DNA of 64,000 nucleotides from Actinomycetota bacterium (GTDB lineage Bacteria > Actinomycetota > Acidimicrobiia > Acidimicrobiales > RAAP-2): positions 1 to 64,000 of the forward strand of contig JAJPJV010000011.1 of the NCBI GenBank assembly GCA_021324045.1, written 5' to 3'. The stretch's first letter is position 1, and every line of letters starts with the position of its first letter. Under the pieces are notes generated by a model that saw nothing but the letters and a program-made list of their open reading frames with translations, searched no databases and had not been told where the DNA came from. Made by a program: the position numbers and the translations under genes. Of this stretch, positions 24,730 through 59,116 are shown piece by piece.

Positions 24730-25638
24730 ATGATGGCCCCCGCCGAGGTGGCCCGGGTCTCGGCGCTGTTCCCCGACGTCTCCTTCGTCGAGGTCCCGGC
24801 GCACGGTGCCCTCCCTGCCGAGGTCCGTGCTGAGATCCTCCTCGTCAGTGGACCGGGCCCCAACCTTGGCCCGGTGCTCGAGCGTGGCGTGCGCTGGGTG
24901 CACACGACCGCCACCGGGATCGAGCGCTTCCCGACCGCCCTGCTCGGCGACCGCCTGTTCACCTGTTCTCGGGGAGCAGGAGCCATCGCGATCTCCGAAT
25001 GGGTCCTGGCGATGATGCTCGCGTTCGCCAAGCGCCTCCCGGAGAGCTGGACCCACGATGCCACCACCAGGTGGACCCGGGCCGACCTCGACACCCTCTA
25101 CGAACGCACCCTCTGTCTTGTCGGCATCGGCGGTATCGGCACCGCGATCGCCCATCGGGCGCTCGGTTTCGGGATGCGGGTCATCGCGCTGCGGCGTCGT
25201 CCGCTCCCCTCCCCGCTCCCGGGGGTCGAGATCGCAAGCCACCTCGACACGCTGCTGGAGCGAGCCGACCATCTCGTGCTCGCCGCCCCGCTGACGCCCA
25301 GCACGACGCACCTCCTCGACGCTCGGGCGTTGCGCATCGTCAAGCCGGGCCTGCACCTCGTCAACGTGTCACGAGGCGGTCTCGTCGACCAGGAGGCATT
25401 GCGGCTCGCCCTCGACGAGGGCACCGTGGAGCGGGCGTCCCTCGACGTCGCCACGCCCGAGCCGCTCCCGCCGGACCACTGGCTGTTGCGCCATCCCCGG
25501 GTCCGGCTCTCCCCGCACATCTCGTGGTCTGCCCCGTGGGGCCTCGATCGGACGTACGCGGTCTTCCGGGCAAACCTCGATCGGTACCTCGCCGGAGAGC
25601 CCCTCGCCGGGGTCGTCGACGTCGCCGAAGGGTACTGA
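24730..25638 (+). CDS. D-2-hydroxyacid dehydrogenase, NAD-binding
   Basis: The product is 302 residues from the ATG at 24730; an in-frame TTG lies 6 nt earlier. The NAD-binding fold carries LVGIGGIGTAIA followed by a basic loop (RRRPLP). The catalytic Arg sits in VNVSRGGLVDQ and the catalytic His in LSPHISW. The acidic residue is in the DVATPEPLP region. It fits the D-isomer 2-hydroxyacid dehydrogenase family that reduces 2-keto acids or oxidises 2-hydroxy acids. It runs 72 nt downstream of the KstD-like gene on the same strand, so cotranscription is possible. Confidence 0.87.
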   Translation: MMAPAEVARVSALFPDVSFVEVPAHGALPAEVRAEILLVSGPGPNLGPVLERGVRWVHTTATGIERFPTALLGDRLFTCSRGAGAIAISEWVLAMMLAFAKRLPESWTHDATTRWTRADLDTLYERTLCLVGIGGIGTAIAHRALGFGMRVIALRRRPLPSPLPGVEIASHLDTLLERADHLVLAAPLTPSTTHLLDARALRIVKPGLHLVNVSRGGLVDQEALRLALDEGTVERASLDVATPEPLPPDHWLLRHPRVRLSPHISWSAPWGLDRTYAVFRANLDRYLAGEPLAGVVDVAEGY

Positions 25639-25703
25639 TCGAGGGCCGCGGACCTCCAGATCCAGTCCCGTGGCGCTCGGCGGCCATCGTGGTCCGACCG
25701 GCC

Positions 25704-25752
25704 TGGACGACCCCAGGGAACAAGACTATGATCATGGTTTGCAAGGTGGTCA
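25704..25752 (+). promoter_or_regulatory. Operator copy A (TATGATCAT) overlapping a possible -10
   Basis: TATGATCAT lies at 25727-25735, followed by TTGCAA and AAGGTGGTCA to 25752. The same arrangement occurs near 33.86 and 48.73 kb. On the plus strand TATGAT (25727-25732) can act as a -10 with TGGACG (25704-25709) 17 nt upstream, serving the amidohydrolase at 25825. The operator would then block polymerase directly. Confidence 0.45.
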
Positions 25753-25824
25753 TGGCTGACGGCAGCACTGCCACCTTGGAGTTCGAGGGCCGAGCGGGCC
25801 GAGCGCGAAGAAAGGCGGGGGACG

Positions 25825-26964
25825 ATGGGTCAATCAACCGTGGACTACCGGGTCATCTCGACGGACAACCACATCAACGAACCACCCGGCACCTATGTGG
25901 ACCGAGTCCCGAAGCACTTGAAGGACCGCGCGCCGCGCATGATGCGCGGCGCGGATGGCGGCGACGGCTGGAGCTTCGACGGCAAACCGCCGAAGGTCAC
26001 GCTCGGACTCGGGGCAACCGGGGCCATCACCGAACAGGACTTCAAGAAGTACAAGAAGAGCGGGATCCGTTTCGAAGAGCTTTTGCCCGGGAACTACGAG
26101 GGGGCTGCCGCGATCAAGGACAACGAAATGGACGGTGTCGACGCGGCGACCATCTACCCGGCGGCCGTCGGCGGCGCCTACCAGATCAAAGACCGCGAGC
26201 TCGCCCTGGCCTGCGTCCGTGCCTACAACGATTGGCTGATCGACGACTTCTGCTCAGCCGATCCTTCGCGATTGCTCTCGTTGCCCTTCATGCCTGTCGA
26301 CGACGGGATCGACACGCTCGTCGCCGAGGCCGAGCGCGTCATCGAAAAGGGCGCTGCAGGCCTCTCCCTGCCGTTGCCCGAGGTCGCGTACCACGATCCC
26401 CGGTACGACCCGCTGTGGAAGGTGGCCTCCGAGGCCAAGGTTCCCGTCACCATCCATCGCGTGGGAGTCAACCGTGCCCAGAACGTTGACTTCCAGATCG
26501 ACGCCACCCCGGGGATCGCCGTCGTCGGCATCGTCCAGCGGTTCTTTTCGGCGATCAACCCGATCAGCAACATGATCTACACCGGCGTCTTCCAACGCTT
26601 CCCCGACCTCGTCTTCATCGCGGCCGAGGTCAACTGCGGATGGCTCCCGAGCCTCGCGATGCAGATGGACCAGGAATGGGAGCGCCAGCGCCATTGGTCC
26701 AAGCTGCCCATCGAGGAACCGCCGAGCTCTTACATCGGCAAGAACGTGTTCGTCACGGTCCTCGACGACTACGTCGGCTACCGCTACGCCAAGGATGACC
26801 CGCTGCTCGCCAGCGCGGCGATGTTCTCGAGCGACTACCCCCACTCCACAACCCTGTGGCCGCGGAGCAAGGAGTACATCGCGACGCTGACCGCCGGGAT
26901 GGACGAGCAGACCAAGCACCAGATCCTGGCGGGGAACGCGATCCGCGCGTACCACCTGGACTGA
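25825..26964 (+). CDS. Amidohydrolase-2 family metal-dependent hydrolase/decarboxylase
   Basis: The product is 379 residues; GGCGGGGG lies upstream of the ATG. This TIM-barrel protein of the amidohydrolase-related (PF04909) superfamily has an early D-x-H metal motif (VISTDNHINEPP), a mid-barrel His (PVTIHRVG) and a late metal Asp in SSDYPHSTTLWP. Members include ACMSD- and gamma-resorcylate-type decarboxylases and ring-opening hydrolases, so C-C or C-N cleavage is possible. It is closest in visible motifs to the copy at 49817. It stands alone behind operator copy A and opens the catabolic region. Confidence 0.85.
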   Translation: MGQSTVDYRVISTDNHINEPPGTYVDRVPKHLKDRAPRMMRGADGGDGWSFDGKPPKVTLGLGATGAITEQDFKKYKKSGIRFEELLPGNYEGAAAIKDNEMDGVDAATIYPAAVGGAYQIKDRELALACVRAYNDWLIDDFCSADPSRLLSLPFMPVDDGIDTLVAEAERVIEKGAAGLSLPLPEVAYHDPRYDPLWKVASEAKVPVTIHRVGVNRAQNVDFQIDATPGIAVVGIVQRFFSAINPISNMIYTGVFQRFPDLVFIAAEVNCGWLPSLAMQMDQEWERQRHWSKLPIEEPPSSYIGKNVFVTVLDDYVGYRYAKDDPLLASAAMFSSDYPHSTTLWPRSKEYIATLTAGMDEQTKHQILAGNAIRAYHLD

Positions 26965-43186: not shown

Positions 43187-43198
43187 TCATTGCAATGA
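43187..43198. promoter_or_regulatory. 12-bp perfect palindrome TCATTGCAATGA
   Basis: This perfect palindrome overlaps the livF stop codon and lies just upstream of the -35 box of the amidohydrolase/FAH promoter. It could be an operator distinct from ATGATCAT. It may also be chance. Confidence 0.4.
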
Positions 43199-43951
43199 TG
43201 CGGTCGCCGGTGCAGAGCCGGCGCGATCGTTGGTGCCGTCAGTGTTCTGACCGAGGTACAGCGTCTTGATGTCGGCGCGAGCCTGGGCACTCGTGCCTTG
43301 CCAACTGACCGCGCCGTGCTGGAGGATCAGGCAGTCGTCTGCGAGCTCGAGCGCGCGTTCGACGAACTGCTCGATCACCACGATCGTCACCCCGCGTTCT
43401 CGGATCCGCTGCACGCTCTCGAACACCCGGTCCACGACGATCGGCGCCAGCCCGAGCGACAGCTCGTCGATGATGAGGAGGCGAACGTTGTGCGCAAGGG
43501 CGATGGCCAGGGAGAGCATCTGCTGCTCCCCTCCCGAGAGCGTGCCGGCGCGCTGCTTCGTTCGCTGAGCGAGCGCCGGGTACGTCTCGAACGCCTGCTC
43601 GATCGCCGCTCGGCGTTCGGCACGCGTCCGGCAACGACGCGTCGCCGCTTGGAGGTTCTCGAGCACCGTGAGGCTCGGGAAGAGCCCGCGGCCTTCCGGC
43701 GCCTGTGACAGGCCGAGACGCCGGATCTCGTGCGCGGGCAAGCCGGTGATGTCCCGACCGTCGAAGCGGACGTGGCCAGCCGCTGGCGGCACCAGACCGG
43801 TGATCGCGCGTGCCAGCGTCGACTTCCCTGCGCCGTTGGGTCCGAGCACGGCGAGCACGCGCTGGGCCTCCAGGTGAAAAGAGACGCCGAAGAGCGCCTT
43901 CGCGGGACCATAAGCGACTTCGAGATCCTCGACCTCGAGGAGGGCGCTCAT
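43187..43951 (-). CDS. livF: ABC transporter ATP-binding protein LivF-type
   Basis: The product is 254 residues from the ATG at 43951. The ATPase shows Walker A GPNGAGKST, Q-loop LSQAPEGRGLFPSLTV (the LivF-type sequence), signature LSGGEQQML, Walker B RLLIIDELS and the switch residues that follow. It is the last gene of the transporter operon, 16 nt after livG. It energises uptake together with LivG and the fused permease. The substrate class is suggested by the five local binding proteins. Confidence 0.93.
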   Translation of the reverse strand: MSALLEVEDLEVAYGPAKALFGVSFHLEAQRVLAVLGPNGAGKSTLARAITGLVPPAAGHVRFDGRDITGLPAHEIRRLGLSQAPEGRGLFPSLTVLENLQAATRRCRTRAERRAAIEQAFETYPALAQRTKQRAGTLSGGEQQMLSLAIALAHNVRLLIIDELSLGLAPIVVDRVFESVQRIRERGVTIVVIEQFVERALELADDCLILQHGAVSWQGTSAQARADIKTLYLGQNTDGTNDRAGSAPATASLQ

Positions 43952-43967
43952 GAACGAACCTCGATCC

Positions 43968-44819
43968 TCACTGTGCTGCCTGCTCCACGGTGACCGAGGC
44001 AGTCCCGAGGTAGGCAGCCTGCACGGCTTCGTCGGCCCTGATCTCCTCCGGCGAGCCCGCGGCGATGAGCCGTCCGAAGTCCAGCACGTAGACGAGCTGA
44101 GCCATGTTGAGCACCAGATCGAGATCGTGCTCGACGAGAACGACCGCGACATGCTCTTGCTCGGCCGCCCGGTCGATCGCCCTGGCGAACTCCATCGTCT
44201 CCTTTGTGTCGAGGCCTGCCGAGGGCTCGTCGAGGAGAAGGACACGGGGCCTCGAGATCAGCGCGCACCCCACTTCGATCAGCTTGGCGATCCCGACCGG
44301 GAGGCCTTGCACCTCCCTCCGCGCGAAGGGCTGCAATCCCAGCAGCTCGATGATCTCGCCCACGCGTTCCAGCTCGCCGGGTGAGCCCGGCCGCCATCCA
44401 CGCAAGCTCACCAAGTCGCTCCACATGCGACGACGCTCGGCGTGGATGCGGTGCGCCAGGGTGAGCTGCTCGGCGACGGTCATCGTCTCGAAGCGCTCGG
44501 GGACTTGGAAGGTCCGCGCCAGGCCGAGGCGGGCGCGGACATGCGGCGCAGCCGCCGTGACGTCGCGGCCGTCGAGGATGACTGATCCCTTGTCGGGGAC
44601 GAGGAAGCCCGAGATCACCTGGAACAGCGTCGTCTTGCCCGCCCCGTTGGGCCCCACGAGCCCGACACGCGCGGATCCGGGCACGTTCAGGCTCACTGCC
44701 GAGAGGGCACGAACGCCGCCGAAATCCACCGTCACGTCACGCACCTCGAGGACCGGGGCCGAGGCGGGCCTCGGAGCACCACGTTCCGCCTCCCGGGCGC
44801 GGGTTTGGCTGGCGCTCAC
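43968..44819 (-). CDS. livG: ABC transporter ATP-binding protein LivG-type
   Basis: The product is 283 residues. Its GTG overlaps the permease stop codon by 4 nt (GTGA). Walker A is GPNGAGKTT, with the LivG-type LARTFQVPERFETMTV segment. The signature is the LivG variant QGLPVGIAKLIEVG rather than LSGGQ, and Walker B is RVLLLDEPSAGLD. It is complete and of typical length. It works with LivF and the LivHM permease. Confidence 0.93.
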   Translation of the reverse strand: MSASQTRAREAERGAPRPASAPVLEVRDVTVDFGGVRALSAVSLNVPGSARVGLVGPNGAGKTTLFQVISGFLVPDKGSVILDGRDVTAAAPHVRARLGLARTFQVPERFETMTVAEQLTLAHRIHAERRRMWSDLVSLRGWRPGSPGELERVGEIIELLGLQPFARREVQGLPVGIAKLIEVGCALISRPRVLLLDEPSAGLDTKETMEFARAIDRAAEQEHVAVVLVEHDLDLVLNMAQLVYVLDFGRLIAAGSPEEIRADEAVQAAYLGTASVTVEQAAQ

Positions 44820-46903
44820 CGTTGCACCTGGGCCCGGGAGACGCCGGCTTCGGCCATGACGGTGATCGGCGGGCTGGCACCGCTGGGCTGGAGCCCGGGC
44901 TCGATGACACCGGGATGCTCCAGCGTCTCGGTGGCAGGCTGGCGCGGGATGTTCCAGCGCCGTAGCAACGTTCTGATCTGGCGCCCCTGCATGGGGAATG
45001 CGCCATCAGGGTTGCGGATCAGCATGATCGCACCGAATCCGAAGAGGAACGCGGGTACTTCGCTGAGACGCGTCGGGAGGAAGGTCGCGAATAGTGCGGG
45101 GATGATGACGAAGTTGATCCCCGCCATGAGCGCGCCGAGGTTCAAGCGGATCCCGAGCGTCGCGACGAGCGCAAGCCACACGAGCCCCCCGACGGTCGTA
45201 TAGAAGGTCGGGTTCCCCTCACCTTGCTGGATCGCCAGGAGACCGCCGCCGAGCGCTGCCACCGCCGCTGCAGCGCCGGCCACGACGACCTTCAGCCCAA
45301 CCGAGTTGATCCCCAGTGCCCTGGCACCAACCTCGCTCGAGCGCGCCGCCATGAGGCCGAGCCCTGCCGTCGAGCGCCGGAGGTGTTCGATCCCCAGAGC
45401 AATGAGGCAGAACACCCCGACCAACAGGTAGACCTGCACGGTGTTGCTCCGGGCGAAGCTCGGCACGACGGTCTTGATGCCGAGCCCGTAGTTCTGGAAC
45501 ACCTGGCGAGAGAAGAAGAGGTTGTCGAGGAGCAGACCGAAGGTCAGGGTCACGAGCGCGACGTAGAGACCACCCATCCGAGAGGTGACGAAGCTGAGGA
45601 GCATCCCGACGGGGACGACCATGATCGAGCTGGCGAGCACCGCGGCGAGCAACGGCCATCCCTGGTCCGTCGCCAGGTAGGCAGTCATCACGGCGCCGAA
45701 GCCGGTGAAGGAGACCATGCAGAGCCAGATCATCCCTCCCTCCCCCGTCACCAGCGTGAACGAGAGGAAGGCGATCGCGAAGCACAGTCCTTCAGCGACG
45801 AGGCCAACCCAGTAGTTCGGGAGAACGAGAGGCAGGAGACAAACGATCGCCAGCTGGCTGAGGAATCCAATCGCTCGAAGGTGGTCGTAACGTACCAACT
45901 TCGCGAACTCACGGCGTTCCATGGCGGTCGCTGCAACCAGCGGGACGTTCGTGCGCAGCTGGGCGACCTCGGCTCGCGATGGGGGTGCGATCGCCCGGTC
46001 GAGCACTCCACCGGACCTCCGGCTGGCACGCGTCGCCAAGCGCCGGTAGGCGACGAGGAGGAACACGAACATGATCGCGAACGGCACGCTCTCAACGATG
46101 TCCGCGGTCAACGCGCTCTGCGGTGGGAGGTACCCCTGGAGGAGCGAGTCGATGATGCCGATGGCGAAGGCCACGATCACGGCGCGGTTGAAATTCACCA
46201 TCTCGCCGACGATCATCGCCGCGAAGGCGGTCGTCATGAGGAAGGTGAATTCCTCGGAACTGAGGCCCGAGATGGGTGCCACCAACACGCCCACGAGCCC
46301 GGCCAAGAACACGCTGACCACCCACACGTACATCGACACGGTCCCAGGGTTCGTCCCCGTGAGGGAGGTCATCGCCGGTGAATCGACCATGGCGCGCACC
46401 ATGAGGCCGGCGCTGGTGAAGCGGAAGATCAGCGTCCCCCCGATCAGTGTGGCAGCCACGACCGCGAGGACGATCACCTGGTCCAACGTGATGGCTGCCC
46501 CGAACACCTTGTAGACGTGAACCGGCTCTGGCGCCAGGCCTGGCGCGATCGATATGACCGGGTTGCCGAACATCACATCCGAGATGGGGGGGATGGCGAC
46601 CGACAAGCCGATGGTGACCACGATCTGCAGCAGCATCGAGGCATTGCGCAGCAGCCGGAACAGGGTGGCGTAGAGGAACGCCCCCAAGGCCGGGCCGATC
46701 ACGACGATCGACAGCAATGCTGCCGGGGCAATGCCCCATCCCTGCTGCGTGTGGAAGAAGTAGTAGCAACGTGCGACGAAGTACGCGAGCGCGCCGTATG
46801 CGAAGTTCAAGATGCCCGACGCGGTGTACGTCACGACGAGGCCGCTGGCGACGACGGCATAGATGCCGCCGATCACTAATCCGGCGATGATGTACTCGAG
46901 CAT
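44816..46903 (-). CDS. Fused LivH-LivM branched-chain-type ABC permease
   Basis: This 695-residue polytopic protein combines a LivH-like half (about 1-285, starting YIIAGLVIGGIYAVVASGL, with a GILNFAYGALA segment) and a LivM-like half (about 350-655, with the cytoplasmic-loop segment MAARSSEVGARALGIN). In most bacteria these are separate genes, so one polypeptide here forms the whole channel. Its ATG directly follows the TAG of the truncated amidohydrolase (46904-47095), so the two are coupled. Confidence 0.9.
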   Translation of the reverse strand: MLEYIIAGLVIGGIYAVVASGLVVTYTASGILNFAYGALAYFVARCYYFFHTQQGWGIAPAALLSIVVIGPALGAFLYATLFRLLRNASMLLQIVVTIGLSVAIPPISDVMFGNPVISIAPGLAPEPVHVYKVFGAAITLDQVIVLAVVAATLIGGTLIFRFTSAGLMVRAMVDSPAMTSLTGTNPGTVSMYVWVVSVFLAGLVGVLVAPISGLSSEEFTFLMTTAFAAMIVGEMVNFNRAVIVAFAIGIIDSLLQGYLPPQSALTADIVESVPFAIMFVFLLVAYRRLATRASRRSGGVLDRAIAPPSRAEVAQLRTNVPLVAATAMERREFAKLVRYDHLRAIGFLSQLAIVCLLPLVLPNYWVGLVAEGLCFAIAFLSFTLVTGEGGMIWLCMVSFTGFGAVMTAYLATDQGWPLLAAVLASSIMVVPVGMLLSFVTSRMGGLYVALVTLTFGLLLDNLFFSRQVFQNYGLGIKTVVPSFARSNTVQVYLLVGVFCLIALGIEHLRRSTAGLGLMAARSSEVGARALGINSVGLKVVVAGAAAAVAALGGGLLAIQQGEGNPTFYTTVGGLVWLALVATLGIRLNLGALMAGINFVIIPALFATFLPTRLSEVPAFLFGFGAIMLIRNPDGAFPMQGRQIRTLLRRWNIPRQPATETLEHPGVIEPGLQPSGASPPITVMAEAGVSRAQVQR

Positions 46904-47095
46904 CTAGTTCAGCTTGTCTGCACGGATCGCGATCTTGCCAAGGAGCCGCCGCATGGTCTCCGCGCTCATCCCCTCCGTCGTCTTGGCGATGCACTCCGGG
47001 CTGCGCGGCGACAGCGGCACGCTCCGAACATGATCGACGCCGGTGCGCGGCGGCTCTTTGCTGTGGTTGTCGGTCGAGATCACCTTGTCATTCAC
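46904..47095 (-). pseudogene. Internally deleted amidohydrolase (63 aa)
   Basis: This short frame starts at a GTG behind GAGGTGAC. Its first part (NDKVISTDNHSKEPPRTGVDHV) matches the N-terminus of the amidohydrolase at 25825 (VISTDNHINEPPGTYVDRV). Its last part (TTEGMSAETMRRLLGKIAIRA) matches that enzyme's C-terminus (LTAGMDEQTKHQILAGNAIRA). The ~300 central residues, including the barrel and the late metal Asp, are missing. It looks like an in-frame internal deletion, kept between the binding-protein and permease genes, whose start abuts its stop codon. Confidence 0.72.
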
Positions 47096-47284
47096 GTCAC
47101 GTCACCTCAGCCTTTTTGCGCCGCAGAAGAGCCGGCCGGTCCGCGTGGCCTTAGGTGGGCCCTGCGTACCGGGGGATGGCCTCGTCGCCGCTCACGGCCG
47201 GTTCTGCCCCGTTGCTCGCCTCGTCCACTGGCCACGGCCACCGGCCTCGCTCGGCCGAAGCCTTCCACGACCCCTCCCACTGCG

Positions 47285-48586
47285 TCACTTCACGACCTTG
47301 CCGCAGACCAAGCCCGTCACGTCGACGAACTTGTGGCCGACGAGCTTCATCCCGTACGCGCACAGGCCCTGTCCTCCGCTGTTGATGCTCTCGTAGGGAC
47401 CCGGGTTCTTGAAGTTCATCGGCTTGATGTTGAGCCCGCCCAGCCAGTCGGTCACGTTGTGGAGGTTGTGGATCAGGCCCGCGTCGGTTGGGTGGGGACC
47501 GGCGACCTTGAGCGCCTCGACGAGCAGCGACCCGACGTTGTACCCCTCGTCGGCGTCGAGCATCGGCGGCACCGTCGTGGGCCCACCGTACTTCTGGAGG
47601 ATCTTGATCGCCTGCTTCACCCGCGGGTTGCTGGTCAGCTGGCCCGGGAGCTCAGCGGTCGTGGTCACGATGTTCTGGAAATACGTGTCGTTGACGCCCT
47701 GCGCGCTCTGGGGGTTGTAACCGGAGGCGAGGACGACCACCTTGGCGCCCACCGAGTTCTGCACGATGCCCTGCATGAGGTTGGCGTTGGTCGTCTGGTC
47801 CATTGCCGAGTAGATGCCGTCCACCCCCGCCTTCTTCAACGCCAACGCCTGGGGGGAGAAGTTGGGCTGGCCGATCGGCACGCTCGTATTGAGGTAATTG
47901 GCCTTGAGCCCGATCGCCTTGGCCCCGAGGTTGTTGTCCTGGGCCGCGACGACCGAGGACTGCGCGATCGACACGGCGAAGCTCCCGACGTCGGTGGCTC
48001 CCAGCTTCTTCATGATCAACGGGATCGTCGTGGTGACCGGGATCTTCCCGGTGGCGTTGCCGTAGGCGCCGAAGACGTTCGGCAGGTAGTTCGGCCCCCA
48101 GTAGCCGCTCAGCGCCGTGATCACCGGGATGTCGATCGACTTGACATAGGGGGCGATGACCACGGCGAGCGGATCGAGCTGCACAAGTGCGAAGACGTGG
48201 TCTGCTTCGACCAGCTTGCGCACGTTGGGGATCGGCAAGTTCGGGTTCGTCGCGTCGTCGACGACGTCGAGGGAGATCTTCCGGCCATAGACACCGCCGT
48301 GGGCGTTCTGCCAGTCCACGACAGCCTTGAACGCCTTGAGGTTCGTGGTGCCCTCGGTGCCGAGCGGGCCGGTCTGGACCGACAGGACGCCGATGGTGAT
48401 CGAGTGTGCGGAGACCCCTTGGGCCCCGCCCGAGCCCGACGACCCGCTCGTCGCCGCAAATGCCGAGCTCGGCGCCAGCACACCGACGAGCAGGCTGACG
48501 ACGAAGGCGAGGATGCTCCAACGCCGAGCTCCTGGACGGCCGCCCCTCTTGCTGGTCGCTCCCCCCAAACGCTGACCGATGGCCAC
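47285..48586 (-). CDS. Branched-chain-type ABC transporter substrate-binding protein
   Basis: The product is 433 residues. I choose the GTG at 48586 because AGGGGGG stands 5-6 nt upstream; an ATG at 48691 would add an Arg-rich tail. The signal segment is WSILAFVVSLLVGVLAPSSAFA. The mature Peripla_BP_6 fold shows ITIGVLSVQTGPLGTEG, WQNAHGGVYGRKISLDVVDD and VDGIYSAMDQTTNANLMQG. It is the first gene of the operon with the LivHM/G/F transporter, so it is the primary binding protein. The operator-bearing promoter at 48715-48743 drives it. Confidence 0.9.
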   Translation of the reverse strand: MAIGQRLGGATSKRGGRPGARRWSILAFVVSLLVGVLAPSSAFAATSGSSGSGGAQGVSAHSITIGVLSVQTGPLGTEGTTNLKAFKAVVDWQNAHGGVYGRKISLDVVDDATNPNLPIPNVRKLVEADHVFALVQLDPLAVVIAPYVKSIDIPVITALSGYWGPNYLPNVFGAYGNATGKIPVTTTIPLIMKKLGATDVGSFAVSIAQSSVVAAQDNNLGAKAIGLKANYLNTSVPIGQPNFSPQALALKKAGVDGIYSAMDQTTNANLMQGIVQNSVGAKVVVLASGYNPQSAQGVNDTYFQNIVTTTAELPGQLTSNPRVKQAIKILQKYGGPTTVPPMLDADEGYNVGSLLVEALKVAGPHPTDAGLIHNLHNVTDWLGGLNIKPMNFKNPGPYESINSGGQGLCAYGMKLVGHKFVDVTGLVCGKVVK

Positions 48587-48714
48587 GGCCACCCCCCTTT
48601 CCCTCGCTCCAGGTGCTCCTGATCTTTCCTGCGCGTGCTCCGTGCGATGGTCGCCGCGCCGCCGTGCTGCCCGCAAGTCCTGCCCATGCACGCCCGCGGC
48701 CAGCGGTACGCGGC

Positions 48715-49816: not shown

Positions 49817-50953
49817 ATGGACTACCAGGTCATCTCGACGGACGATCACATCATCGAGGCGCCCGACACCTTCGACCGGCTTCCCGCCCGCTTCCGCGAC
49901 CGCCAGCCCCGCATCCTGCGCGGTCCCGACGGGGGCGACGGGTGGAGCTTCGACGGCAACCCACCGAGGAACACCTTCGGGCTCAACGCGGTCGCCGGCC
50001 GCCCGTACCAGGATTACAAGGAGAGCGGGCTGACCTTCGAAGAGATCCTGCCAGGCAACTACGACGGCTCCGCCCATTTGAAGGACATGGACCTCGACGG
50101 CGTGGACGCCGCCACCATCTACCCGATGGCCACGCTCGAGGCCTTGGTGGTGGCCGACCGCGAGTTCGGGCTGGCCTGCGTCAGGGCGTACAACGACTGG
50201 CTGCTCGAGGACTTCTGCGGTGCGGACCCCAAGCGCCTGATCGGCCTTCCGATCATCCCGGTCGACGACGGAGAACGCGCCATGATCGACGAGGCTGAAC
50301 GCGTGATCGCCAAGGGTGCGCGCGGGGTGTTCCTTCCGTACTTCTCCGAGCGCGGGTACTACGACGCCTACTACGAACCGCTGTGGCAGCTGCTCGAAGC
50401 GGCACGAGTGGCGGCCACGATCCACCGGACCATGGGCGGGAGAGCCCCCGCGAGCGAATCAGCGATGGGCGCAGTCGACCCCAAGGCGCGTCCAGGGCTG
50501 AACGTCTCGGGGATCGTGGAGCGGTTCTTTTCCGGCGTCACCCCCCTCACTCGGCTCATCTTCACCGGGGTCTTCGAACGCCACCCGAACCTGCACTTCG
50601 TCGACGCCGAGGTGAACGCAGGGTGGGTGCCGTTCTGGGTGCAGATGATGGAGCAGGAGTACGAACGCCAGCAGCACTGGGCGCATCCGCCGATCTCGGA
50701 GAGCCCGAGCGAGTTCGTCGGGCGCAACGTGTACGTGACCGCTCTGGACGACTTCGTCGGCTTCGATCTCGCCAAACGCAACGACGTGCTGGCTCGCTCG
50801 CTGATGTGGTCCTCCGACTACCCCCACAGCACCACGCTGTGGCCCAAGAGCAAGGAGTACATCGCCGCGCTCACCGACGGCATGGACGCGCAACGCAGAC
50901 GTGACGTGCTGGCCGGCAACGCGATCCGGGCGTTCGCGCTCGAGGCGGCCTGA
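49817..50953 (+). CDS. Amidohydrolase-2 family enzyme
   Basis: The product is 378 residues, with GAGGAGGAG before the ATG. Metal motifs: VISTDDHIIEAP (D-x-H), VAATIHRTMGG (His) and SSDYPHSTTLWP (Asp). It is close to the 25825 enzyme throughout (for example PGNYDGSAHLKDMDLDGVDAA versus PGNYEGAAAIKDNEMDGVDAA), so they are recent paralogues. It leads the operon amidohydrolase, CoA-transferase, isochorismatase-like, binding protein, Ldh-type dehydrogenase. Confidence 0.87.
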   Translation: MDYQVISTDDHIIEAPDTFDRLPARFRDRQPRILRGPDGGDGWSFDGNPPRNTFGLNAVAGRPYQDYKESGLTFEEILPGNYDGSAHLKDMDLDGVDAATIYPMATLEALVVADREFGLACVRAYNDWLLEDFCGADPKRLIGLPIIPVDDGERAMIDEAERVIAKGARGVFLPYFSERGYYDAYYEPLWQLLEAARVAATIHRTMGGRAPASESAMGAVDPKARPGLNVSGIVERFFSGVTPLTRLIFTGVFERHPNLHFVDAEVNAGWVPFWVQMMEQEYERQQHWAHPPISESPSEFVGRNVYVTALDDFVGFDLAKRNDVLARSLMWSSDYPHSTTLWPKSKEYIAALTDGMDAQRRRDVLAGNAIRAFALEAA

Positions 50954-50959
50954 CGCCCG

Positions 50960-52189
50960 ATGGAGGAGCCCGCGCTCCCCTGGCGCGGGGTACGCGTCCT
51001 CGAGCCGGCGGTCCTGCTCGCAGCTCCCTTCGCTTCGACCCTCATGGCTGACTTCGGGGCTGAGGTCATCAAGCTGGAGCTCCCCGGCAGCGGCGACCCC
51101 ATGCGCCAGCTCGCGCCCATCCACAAGGGCCAGTCCCTGTGGTGGAAGGCGACGGCCCGCAACAAGAAGTCGGCCACGCTCGACTTGCGCACGCCGCGTG
51201 GCCAGGAGCTCTTCCGCCGCCTGGCCGCCGAGAGCGACGTGGTGATCGAGAACTTTCGGCCCGGGGTCATGGAGCACTGGGGGCTGGGCTGGGAGACCCT
51301 CCACGAGTGCAATCCGAAGCTCATCATGGTTCGCCAGACCGGCTTCGGCCAGTTCGGCCCCTATGCCCAACACCCCGCTTACGGCATGATCGTCGAGTGC
51401 TACGCGGGCCTGCCCGACGCACTCGGGTTCTCCGACACCCCGCCGGTCGGTTCTAGCCTTGGCGACTATCTCGCTGGCTTGGTCATCGTCTACGCGATCA
51501 TGTTCGCCCTCTATCACCGCGACGTGCACGGGGGACCGGGACAGCTCATCGACAACGCCGCATCGGAGGCCATCTTGCGCATCACCGCCGAGAGTCGTGT
51601 CCCGGCGCTCCACCTCGGCCTACCGGCGCCCCCGAAGCGATCGGCGGACCGCCCCTATCAGTCGATGGGAGCAGACGACCTTCGGGTGGCGGGATTCTTC
51701 CAAACCGCCGACGATCGCTGGTGCGCGTTGCACCCGGGCACCGCGGGCACGGCGATCTGGGCCAACCTCGTGCAAGTGATGGGACGGGAGGACTTCCTCG
51801 ACGAAGCCGCCTATCCCCTCGGGTCCCCGGCACGCCAGCAGCGTCGCCAGGAGATCGCCGAAGTCGTCGCGCAGTGGTTCCGCGCGCACACCCGTGACGA
51901 GGTCGTCTCGACCGCCCAACGTTGCAACATCACGATCGCTCCGGTCTACAGCGTGCAGGACGCGATGGCGGACCCGCATTTCGCTGCCCGCCAATCCTTC
52001 GTCGACGTCGACGACGAGGACTTCGGGGTGCTGCGGATGGTCAACGTCACGCCGCGCCTCTCCGCCACCCCGGGTGCCGTCTTGCATCCCGGTCCACGAG
52101 TTGGTGAACACAACGAAGAGATCTACGGCGACATCCTCAAAATGACCAACGCGGAACTGCGCGTACTGCGCGACGATGGCGTCATCTGA
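50960..52189 (+). CDS. CaiB/BaiF CoA-transferase
   Basis: The product is 409 residues, beginning 6 nt after the amidohydrolase stop codon. Family III CoA-transferase with GVRVLEPAVLLAAPF, MADFGAEVIKLELPG and the catalytic Asp in GGPGQLIDNAASEA. The C-terminal part has HNEEIYGDILKM. It transfers CoA onto a carboxylate, presumably the compound imported by the nearby binding proteins or released by the amidohydrolase. Confidence 0.87.
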   Translation: MEEPALPWRGVRVLEPAVLLAAPFASTLMADFGAEVIKLELPGSGDPMRQLAPIHKGQSLWWKATARNKKSATLDLRTPRGQELFRRLAAESDVVIENFRPGVMEHWGLGWETLHECNPKLIMVRQTGFGQFGPYAQHPAYGMIVECYAGLPDALGFSDTPPVGSSLGDYLAGLVIVYAIMFALYHRDVHGGPGQLIDNAASEAILRITAESRVPALHLGLPAPPKRSADRPYQSMGADDLRVAGFFQTADDRWCALHPGTAGTAIWANLVQVMGREDFLDEAAYPLGSPARQQRRQEIAEVVAQWFRAHTRDEVVSTAQRCNITIAPVYSVQDAMADPHFAARQSFVDVDDEDFGVLRMVNVTPRLSATPGAVLHPGPRVGEHNEEIYGDILKMTNAELRVLRDDGVI

Positions 52190-52205
52190 TGAAAAAAGGG
52201 GGCTG

Positions 52206-52754
52206 ATGACTGATCGCTTCGATGTCGATCCCACGCGCGCCGTGGTGCTGCCATCCGACTTCACGACTGGGATCGTCGAGCACTATGCCTTCGACGGCAC
52301 CGCCGCCGTCGAACGTGCCGCCGCGGTGTGCCAGGCTGCTCGCCAAGCCGCCGTTCCCGTCATCCACGTCGCGCCGGGACGCCTCGATCCGAAGAACCCC
52401 GTTGCACAGTTCCATCCAGCCATCACACCGGTCGAAGGCGACACCGTGGTCAACAAGACCAGAATCGGCGCCTTCTCCACCACCGGTCTCGACGTCCAGC
52501 TCCGCGCCAGCGGCAGGGACATTGTCGTCTTGATGGGGATCGCAACGAGCGGCACGGTGCTGTCTTCTGCCCGATGGGCATATGACCTCGGGTACAAGAT
52601 CGTCGTGGTAGCCGACGCCTGCTCGGACCCCGATCCCGAGGTCCACCGCATCCTGACTGAGCCCGTTCACGACGCAAGCTGGATCGGCTTGTGGCGACTC
52701 GCGGACGTCGTCACGGCGGAGTCGATGATCGCCACGTTGACGAGGAGGACGTGA
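52206..52754 (+). CDS. Isochorismatase-fold protein lacking the catalytic Cys
   Basis: The product is 182 residues. The ATG at 52206 follows AAAAAAGGGGG. The isochorismatase-like alpha/beta fold has an early Asp (VVLPSDFTTG) and the conserved Lys in VVNKTRIGAFSTTGLD. The motif that normally carries the nucleophilic Cys reads GIATSGTVLSSARWA, with Gly in its place. It may therefore be a non-hydrolytic member, like isochorismatase itself. It sits between a CoA-transferase and a binding protein with gaps under 20 nt, so it is in the operon. Confidence 0.8.
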   Translation: MTDRFDVDPTRAVVLPSDFTTGIVEHYAFDGTAAVERAAAVCQAARQAAVPVIHVAPGRLDPKNPVAQFHPAITPVEGDTVVNKTRIGAFSTTGLDVQLRASGRDIVVLMGIATSGTVLSSARWAYDLGYKIVVVADACSDPDPEVHRILTEPVHDASWIGLWRLADVVTAESMIATLTRRT

Positions 52755-52757
52755 GGA

Positions 52758-54014
52758 ATGAAGCGGCTCTCGAGGCGAGCAGGGGCGCTCGCGGTGGTTG
52801 CCGTCGGGTTGCTGGGTGGGTCGGCGGCGATCGTGACCGGTGCCGGGGCGGCTCCGAAGACGCCGGGGGTGACCCCCAGGACGATCACGGTCGGACTCAT
52901 CACGCCGGAGACCGGCCCCGGGGCCTCCAACTTCACCGGCGTCGTACCAGCCGCCGAAGCTCGGATTGACCTGCAGAATGCCCATGGCGGGGTTGACGGT
53001 CGCAGGATCAACCTCGTCATCAAAGACGACGCCACCAACCCTGCCACCAATCAGTCCGCGACTGCTGCACTGATCTCCGAGGGGGTCTTCGGGATCATGG
53101 ACGTGAGCCCCGTGGCCTTCGGCGGGTACAAGCTGGCTCAACAGGCTGGCGTGCCGGTGACCGGCGGCGCCACCGATGCCGAGGAGTGGTACCAGAAGCC
53201 CAACACCAACATGTTCTCCATCACCGGACAGCTCTCCCCCAAGGACCCCCAATATGGAGGGCTCGCGAGCTTCATCAGAGCCCACGGCGGGACCCGATGC
53301 GGATCGGTGGGCTACTCGATCTCGCCGTCTTCGACGGCGGCCGCGCGTGGCTTCATCCTGCAGTGCGAGCGTGCAGGGCTCAAGAACGCCTATCTCAACA
53401 CCACACTGCCCTTCGGGACGATCGACACGACGTCGCTGGCACTCGAGATGAAAGGAGCGAGGGTCAACGCCCTCTACCTCCCCCTCGATTCGAACACGAA
53501 CTTTGCGATCGTGACCTCTCTCAAGCAGGCCGGGGTGAACATGAAGATGGTGATCTCGGCGACCGGCTACGGTCAGGAGATCCTCGACGACCAGGCGGCC
53601 CTACCCGACGCCCAGGGCACGTGGTTCACCGTTGAAGGCACCCCGGTCGAAGTCCATACGCCGGCCACCGAGCAGTTCCAGGCAGCACTCGCGCGTTACG
53701 TGCATTTCACCGGCATTCCGGGCTTCAGTTGGTACGAGGGATGGGGTGCCGCCGATCTCATGATCTACGGGCTCGAGCGAGCCGGGAAGAACCCGACCCA
53801 GCCAGGGTTCATCAATGCCCTCCACAAGGTGACCCATTACGACGTCGGGGGGCTCGAGAGTGCGCAGCCGGCCAACTACACCCTGAGCCACTGGGGCAAA
53901 GCCCCGAAGCAGCTGTGCCAGTGGCTCGTCCAGCTCAAAGGCAGATCCTTCGTCAATCCGACGAAGATCTGTGGCAAGTTGCTGGCGAACTCGAACGAGC
54001 TTCCAAACCAATGA
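52758..54014 (+). CDS. Branched-chain-type ABC transporter substrate-binding protein
   Basis: The product is 418 residues; GGAGG precedes the ATG. It has a signal peptide (MKRLSRRAGALAVVAVG) with cleavage near GAGAAP. The Peripla_BP_6 fold shows ITVGLITPETGPGASN, IDLQNAHGGVDGRRIN and TDAEEWYQKPNTNMF. It is strikingly similar to the binding protein at 57875 over its whole length (TRCGSVGY.ISPSS, then VNPTK.CGKLLANS at the end), so one is a local duplicate. Its own operon has no permease; LivHM/G/F on the other strand is the likely partner. Confidence 0.9.
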   Translation: MKRLSRRAGALAVVAVGLLGGSAAIVTGAGAAPKTPGVTPRTITVGLITPETGPGASNFTGVVPAAEARIDLQNAHGGVDGRRINLVIKDDATNPATNQSATAALISEGVFGIMDVSPVAFGGYKLAQQAGVPVTGGATDAEEWYQKPNTNMFSITGQLSPKDPQYGGLASFIRAHGGTRCGSVGYSISPSSTAAARGFILQCERAGLKNAYLNTTLPFGTIDTTSLALEMKGARVNALYLPLDSNTNFAIVTSLKQAGVNMKMVISATGYGQEILDDQAALPDAQGTWFTVEGTPVEVHTPATEQFQAALARYVHFTGIPGFSWYEGWGAADLMIYGLERAGKNPTQPGFINALHKVTHYDVGGLESAQPANYTLSHWGKAPKQLCQWLVQLKGRSFVNPTKICGKLLANSNELPNQ

Positions 54015-57772: not shown

Positions 57773-57874
57773 CGCTGCAATCGATCGATTGGGGGGATGA
57801 TGACCTTACGAGTTGGCGTCGCCGGCAGCGGCATCGACACGCACGACCGGCGCAGAGGCAGAGGGATCCCAAGG

Positions 57875-59116
57875 ATGCACCGGCGACCGATCGTTCTCGC
57901 CGTCTCCGCAGCCCTGGTGGCGCTGGTGGCCTCCACGACGATCGGAGCAGGCAGCGCCTCGGCAACGCCAGGGGTGACTTCGAAGACCATCACGCTGGGG
58001 CTCATCACCTCCGAGACCGGGCCCGCAGCCCCGGTGACCGCCGGCGTGATCCCTGCGGACGAGGCGCGCATCGACCTCCAGAACGCCCACGGTGGCGTGG
58101 ACGGACGCAAGATCAAGCTCGTCATCAAAGACGATGCCACGAGCCCGACGCAGAATCAGTCGGCGACTGCTGCGCTCATCTCCCAAGGGGTCTTCGGGAT
58201 CATCGACGAGAGCGCGGTGACCTTCGGTGGCTACAAGGTCGCCCAGCAGGCAGGCGTCCCGGTGGTGGGCTCTGGGACCGACGGCGAGGAGTGGTTCCAG
58301 CGTCCCAACACCAACATGTTCGCCTACAGCGGACAACTCAGTCCCGCAGATCCTCAGTACGCCGGGCTCGCACGCTTCGCCAAAGCCCACGGCGGGACAC
58401 GATGCGGTTCAGTCGGCTATGCGATCTCGCCGTCTTCGGCGGCCGCGGCCCGCGGCTGGGAGTTCAGCTGCAAAGCCGTGGGAATGGATCCTGCCTTTCT
58501 CGACGACACTTTGCCCTTCGGCAGCGTCGCCGTGACTCCCCTCGCGCTTCAGCTCAAGGCGGCCGGGGTCAACGCCGTGTACCTGCCGCTGGAGACCGAG
58601 ACGAACCTCGCCATCCTCACCGCCCTCAAGCAGGCCGGGGTCTCCCTGAAGGTGGCCTTGTCGGCAGAGGGCTACGGCCAGGCGCTCATCAACGACACCG
58701 CAGCGATCCCAGCCGCCCAGGGCGCGTGGTTCTTCACCTTCCTCGCCCCAGTGGAGCTGCACACCGCTGCAACGAAGACCTTCCAGGCAGCCTTGAAGAA
58801 GTACGCGCACTACACCGGGGTGCCCGACGTCGGGTGGGACAAAGGCTGGGCGGATGCGGACCTGATGATCTACGGGCTCAAGCTCGCCGGGAAGAACCCT
58901 ACCCAGCGCGGGTTCATTGCCGCTCTCCACAAAGTGACCAACTATGACGTCGGGGGGCTCTCGCCGACGAAGGCCAACTTCACCCTCAAGGACTGGGGAA
59001 AGGCGCCAAGCGAGACCTGTCAGTGGATTGCCCAGTTCAAGGGCGATACCTTCGTCAATCCCACGAAGGTGTGCGGCAAGCTCCTGGCGAACTCCGATCA
59101 GCTACCGAGCCAGTAG
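57875..59116 (+). CDS. Branched-chain-type ABC transporter substrate-binding protein
   Basis: The product is about 413 residues from the ATG at 57875, chosen because AGAGGGA lies ~8 nt upstream and because the signal peptide (HRRPIVLAVSAALVALVAS) then starts at the N-terminus, as in its paralogue at 52758. An ATG at 57797 with GGGGGG upstream would add 26 residues. The mature fold has ITLGLITSETGPAAP, IDLQNAHGGVDGRKIK and TDGEEWFQRPNTNMF. It is a duplicate of the 52758 protein. It closes the cupin, VOC, amidohydrolase, binding-protein operon. Confidence 0.88.
   Translation: MHRRPIVLAVSAALVALVASTTIGAGSASATPGVTSKTITLGLITSETGPAAPVTAGVIPADEARIDLQNAHGGVDGRKIKLVIKDDATSPTQNQSATAALISQGVFGIIDESAVTFGGYKVAQQAGVPVVGSGTDGEEWFQRPNTNMFAYSGQLSPADPQYAGLARFAKAHGGTRCGSVGYAISPSSAAAARGWEFSCKAVGMDPAFLDDTLPFGSVAVTPLALQLKAAGVNAVYLPLETETNLAILTALKQAGVSLKVALSAEGYGQALINDTAAIPAAQGAWFFTFLAPVELHTAATKTFQAALKKYAHYTGVPDVGWDKGWADADLMIYGLKLAGKNPTQRGFIAALHKVTNYDVGGLSPTKANFTLKDWGKAPSETCQWIAQFKGDTFVNPTKVCGKLLANSDQLPSQ

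Follow-up and report, generated by a model that had tools for sequence, protein, structure and literature searches.

A 63-codon amidohydrolase remnant abutting an ABC permease gene as a candidate ribosome-delivering upstream frame

In bacterial operons, the state of an upstream frame can control the output of the next gene, as in the rph-1/pyrE pair of Escherichia coli K-12, for which the primary paper is reportedly that of Jensen from 1993. As described in the part of PMC11148124 that deals with this pair, the link is lost through a frameshift, and pyrE output falls by way of an attenuator, whereas in the locus studied here the upstream frame is kept. Short upstream open reading frames (ORFs) that may act solely as ribosome deliverers are presented in a section of PMC12548453, which also gives a stop/start spacing of -4 to +3 nt as the most efficient for translational coupling. 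Like the frame studied here, these ORFs have their own Shine-Dalgarno (SD) site and a stop abutting the main start, and their peptide probably does not have to be functional, but they are de novo ORFs or inserted repeats (section cited above), while here we deal with a shrunken enzyme gene whose translation is putative. The mycobacterial interspersed repetitive units (MIRUs) covered in the same section of PMC12548453 are likewise non-essential frames at a start codon that are harmless through coupling; however, they are mobile repeats found at starts with a spacing of -4 nt, where our frame is a deletion remnant with a spacing of 0 nt.

According to an excerpt of PMC10666635, coupling needs no more of the upstream gene than its last 15 nt. 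An excerpt of PMC6728339 reports that reinitiation is often aided by SD motifs and was lower once one had been removed, so the restart at a permease gene without an SD, as considered below, may be weak. Those parts of the literature that were searched yielded no reported example of a gene remnant being retained for ribosome delivery. The coupled upstream ORF is already known; what is new here is that it would be made from the corpse of an enzyme gene and that its client gene has no SD. On the protein side, the closest solved structures to the parent subfamily are the PF04909 members PtmU3 (6omp) and DitZ (8uyr). Both ends of the remnant belong to this kind of protein but, in contrast to PtmU3 and DitZ, it lacks the core, the D-Y-P-H motif included.

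The frame lies on the minus strand within a transporter operon of the window, the whole 64,000-nucleotide stretch of DNA that was analyzed. The features discussed are collected in Table 1.

Table 1 Features of the remnant, its operon and its intact paralogues, with positions in the window.
Feature	Position	Strand	Basis
Amidohydrolase remnant, 63 codons	46904..47095	-	GTG start, TAG stop; both ends align to the 25825 protein, core absent
N-terminal remnant block, residues 1-23 = A6-A28 of the 25825 protein	47027..47095	-	6/6 subfamily-invariant residues kept (profile of 18 subfamily members)
C-terminal remnant block, residues 25-63 + stop = A341-A379 + natural stop	46904..47023	-	6/9 subfamily-invariant residues kept
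Deletion junction, codon 24 (CGG), ~311 parent codons absent	47024..47026	-	Codon alignment; +/- a few codons
SD-like site GAGGTGA of the remnant	47102..47108	-	Duplex -11.3 kcal/mol
TAG/ATG, remnant stop adjoining permease start	46901..46906	-	Sequence
Fused LivH-LivM type ABC permease, 695 aa, without its own SD	44816..46903	-	SD energy; homologues
Gap between binding-protein gene and remnant, 189 nt	47096..47284	-	Sequence
Substrate-binding protein gene, upstream in the operon	47285..48691	-	PF13458
Two ATPase genes 3' of the permease (frames 43968-44819 and about 43187-43960)	43187..44819	-	ORFs
Closest intact paralogue of the parent enzyme	25825..26964	+	PF04909
Second intact paralogue, 57% identical to 25825	49817..50953	+	PF04909

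Amidohydrolase origin of the frame

An earlier note on this DNA, made from the sequence alone, had described the frame as a truncated amidohydrolase whose two ends align with the protein encoded at 25825 and whose core is missing. In local alignments with this protein (positions prefixed with A), remnant residues 4-23 matched A9-28 (14/20 identical, score 70) and residues 28-63 matched A344-379 (17/36 identical, score 65). None of 2000 shuffles reached the score of either part, the best ones scoring 42 for the N part and 40 for the C part. The protein encoded at 49817, the other alignment partner named in the note, also aligned to both ends of the remnant, with scores of 45 (N) and 64 (C), each reached by 0/2000 shuffles. 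As a control, six-frame translation of the window and of eight further stretches of this genome supplied 916 ORFs of 45-110 aa for scoring: the remnant scored 68 on its weaker end and the runner-up only 30. The alignments, the shuffles and this control strongly support a truncated amidohydrolase, and both ends match both paralogues above chance; the C-terminal match, however, covers ~38 residues and not the ~25 that had been noted.

The end of the remnant coincides with that of the family, residue 63 corresponding to A379 and being followed by the stop, and since the two ends agree exactly, the stop is inherited. Codon alignment and the profile of 18 subfamily members placed the junction between remnant residues 24 and 25. 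What is missing from the remnant (A30-A340) includes the D-Y-P-H motif, which is invariant in the subfamily. Functional enzymes of the Amidohydrolase_2 family (PF04909) have a TIM-barrel core with metal ligands. The 63-aa frame had no match to any Pfam family at E <= 1 and none to NCBIfam, while the 25825 and 49817 proteins do match PF04909; judged by its sequence, the remnant cannot be an enzyme of this family, as the core with D-Y-P-H is absent.

We then compared the constraint on the two blocks, which was clearly relaxed in the C block and not in the N block by itself. The three subfamily-invariant residues lost from the C block are W345 (to S), L355 (to T) and N371 (to I). In the C block, sites at which the remnant departs from a state shared by 25825 and 49817 were counted as changes in the remnant lineage. 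At codon positions 1/2/3, these numbered 8/11/5, compared to 4/4/9 in the lineage of 49817 and 1/4/4 in that of 25825. A home-made branch codon model (61 codons, five sequences, three topologies) gave an omega of 0.36-0.58 on the remnant versus ~0.07 elsewhere. The one-ratio model was worse by 2.12-2.29 lnL (p about 0.03-0.04, taking 2 x the difference with 1 degree of freedom), and omega = 1 on the remnant was not rejected (0.03-0.48 lnL, three topologies). A two-phase model, run on two topologies, yielded a neutral stretch of ~0.6 substitutions per codon, with a 2-unit drop in likelihood reached close to 0 on one side and at 1.0-1.4 substitutions per codon on the other. The relaxation signal stems from the C block, the N block alone being compatible with zero, and the statistics are modest, the sequence being short. 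The lost invariant residues and the relaxed omega mean that the enzyme is dead.

A disrupted frame is usual for a pseudogene but not required. Here, the frame is open from the GTG to the natural stop of the family, the 61 aligned codons contain no stop and no indel, and the GC3 of 0.88 is gene-like. On this evidence, we regard the remnant nature and the amidohydrolase origin of the frame as near certain, and its description as an internally deleted pseudogene of the 25825/49817 subfamily as well supported.

Start signals of the remnant and the permease

The frame was said in the earlier note to keep a start, a ribosome binding site and a stop abutting the permease gene, and this was borne out: a perfect GAGGTGA is found 6 nt 5' of the remnant GTG, and the remnant TAG (46904-46906) and the permease ATG (46901-46903) are separated by 0 nt. 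The permease start is well fixed, because the N-terminus MLEYIIAGLV matches the homologues from residue 1. The SD energy ahead of this ATG is only -1.8 kcal/mol, where those of the homologous permeases range from -7.3 to -13.3 kcal/mol (17/17), with 16/17 reaching -8.6. These 17 permeases are all the other matches at E <= 1e-150 in 172 genomes of the family, including one paralogue from the same genome; a distant permease (L046) was left out, as its projected start is not a start codon. Random 20-mers of the window had a mean energy of -5.2, 12.8% of them being as weak as -1.8 and 12.4% reaching -8.6. Compared with the 17 homologues, the window permease is thus alone in combining an abutting gene remnant with an absent SD.

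SD energies were also calculated for other close gene pairs in the window, namely at 44819 (-7.9), 40474 (-7.9), 50960 (-7.5), 52758 (-11.8) and 52176 (-0.3), the last value meaning that a close pair without SD is not unique to the permease in the window. The values for 43960, which is not a start codon, and for 48691 and 43177, whose listed starts may be wrong, were left out. Another candidate for coupling is thus the gene at 52176-52754, which has no SD and whose start lies within the final part of the CoA-transferase gene.

No promoter-like site and no terminator-like site of the minus strand was found in the gap between the binding-protein gene and the remnant. The RNA folds of the permease start, of the remnant start and of the gap were no better than those of shuffles (z +0.56 to +1.44). 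As no structure blocks the permease start, direct SD-independent initiation is possible there.

Translational coupling and its alternatives

The explanation that we favor, and consider on balance probable, is that the pseudogene is kept as a ribosome-delivering upstream frame by translational coupling. An intact amidohydrolase gene would once have stood between the binding-protein and permease genes with its stop touching the permease ATG; we infer this ancestor from the remnant, whose natural family stop touches the permease. The enzyme was then killed by an internal deletion of ~310 codons, after which its two ends shared a single frame. We further infer that the remnant is translated, that the permease depends on it and that the frame is under selection: ribosomes would enter at the remnant SD/GTG, translate 63 codons, end at the TAG and restart at the abutting ATG. 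Since the permease lacks its own ribosome binding site, we propose that the ribosomes must come through the remnant, in which case selection would act on its start, frame and stop and little on the peptide. Three of the traits expected of a coupled upstream ORF are present at the locus, with a spacing of 0 nt, an SD of -11.3 for the remnant and one of -1.8 for the permease against the 17/17 homologues. Along with a frame kept amid drift, they lend indirect support to the suggestion of the earlier note that the frame may survive for coupling.

If this is true, a dead gene would be indispensable without any function of its product, because it holds the only ribosome entry point of its neighbor. 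There would also be a concrete and testable reason for the kept frames of some operon pseudogenes, and it would be a warning that, where a small "hypothetical protein" is encoded right next to a larger gene, the frame may serve ribosome entry and the product may not merit characterization as a protein.

The remnant might instead be a plain pseudogene that is not yet out of frame, unselected and followed by a permease that uses weak direct initiation, which we consider rather unlikely. The drift is compatible with neutrality, and the unbroken frame was rejected as proof of selection, as the probability of no stop arising in the remnant is 0.61 for 30 random substitutions and, at 0.53, still above 0.5 for 40. 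With these probabilities, and with one deletion in three preserving the frame, an unbroken frame would be obtained fairly often by chance. Decay within the family does happen in this genome, where a second dead amidohydrolase was found on contig C42 (about 25307-26375; L181:1308-2376). This copy, however, has come apart into pieces that occupy frames 3, 2 and 1 in succession, and no co-directional gene was seen behind it, the gene match there, which is CoA-transferase-like, being on the opposite strand. It illustrates the decay of a dead copy that stands free. At ~six times the length of the remnant, it is a weak control, and its use as a control for the decay rate was not decisive, the lengths being too different. 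Against a plain pseudogene, the permease lacks, 0 nt from the remnant stop, the SD that 17/17 homologues have, and the 61 aligned codons carry no indel. An assembly artefact, in which the core was lost while a fragmented genome was assembled and the real gene is intact, seems very improbable: the genome does come in 52 contigs with an estimated contamination of 2.7%, but, unlike what an intact enzyme would show, both ends differ markedly in sequence from the living paralogues, and invariant residues are lost.

The complete set of invariant residues in the N block, which shows no relaxation alone, and the gene-like GC3 would suit a small protein with a new function, such as a subunit or regulator of the transporter. 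We find this improbable, as changes in the C block are not concentrated at third positions, the codon model does not reject omega = 1 for the remnant as a whole, neither Pfam nor NCBIfam gives a match, and no second copy of the remnant was recognized in 100 (among the matches listed), 397 and 172 genomes, the genome itself being counted in each. The earlier note had also considered a leader peptide, and a location directly 5' of a branched-chain-type transporter gene would fit an attenuator through which an amino acid regulates the permease. This option is barely credible, since the remnant has no regulatory codon run (no residue occurs more than twice consecutively), there is no intrinsic terminator on the coding strand and no terminator/antiterminator arrangement, the gap and both start regions fold no better than shuffles, and the two amidohydrolase ends account for the whole sequence.

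Within the coupling explanation, we tentatively suggest an evolutionary trap, a history that we hold to be possible though somewhat doubtful. The permease SD would have been displaced or lost when the amidohydrolase gene arrived, making the permease dependent on it, and the enzyme would later have become useless and been hollowed out. The 63 codons that are left would now be an irremovable entry device, with its frame fixed and its peptide free.

Related loci in this and other genomes

The earlier note had proposed looking in related genomes for an intact amidohydrolase in the corresponding place of the operon, and this search came back empty. None of the 17 homologous permeases has an intact amidohydrolase directly 5', nor was one seen in a check of 13 homologues, a set that overlaps with the 17 in part and includes one more distant permease. 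In one of the 17 (G044; L021/L056), an amidohydrolase lies ~1.2 kb 5' of the permease with another frame in between. Around 108 loci carrying relatives of 25825 (28 from relative genomes and 80 from the named genome collection, with flanks of <=5 kb), there were 0 permease matches, and a permease scan of the named genome collection gave 16 pattern matches with 0 relatives. The relatives searched include no genome of the same genus. In the searches for a second remnant, the best foreign match (G036, E 3.1e-4, the others having E > 0.001) gave a translation without amidohydrolase features and was taken as chance, and a match in G375 proved to be the C-terminus of an intact amidohydrolase. Two records titled "MAG: Bifidobacterium breve" (L111 and L149) contain amidohydrolases close to those of Acidimicrobiia, and their organism names may be wrong.

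The genome that carries the remnant has 49 Amidohydrolase_2 matches, although a single gene may account for several of these, and expansion and loss in this family are thus ordinary. Elsewhere in the same genome (C51:20000-38000; L045), a binding-protein gene stands with a fused permease 48% identical to that of the window, and the 18 kb covered there gave no ATPase match. Within the window, the binding-protein genes at 52758-54014 and 57866-59113 are 65% identical, apparently through duplication. Set against the amidohydrolase matches and 16 scored binding-protein matches (of 29 candidates), there are only 5 permease matches in the genome, so that a small number of transporters seems to serve many binding-protein/amidohydrolase cassettes.
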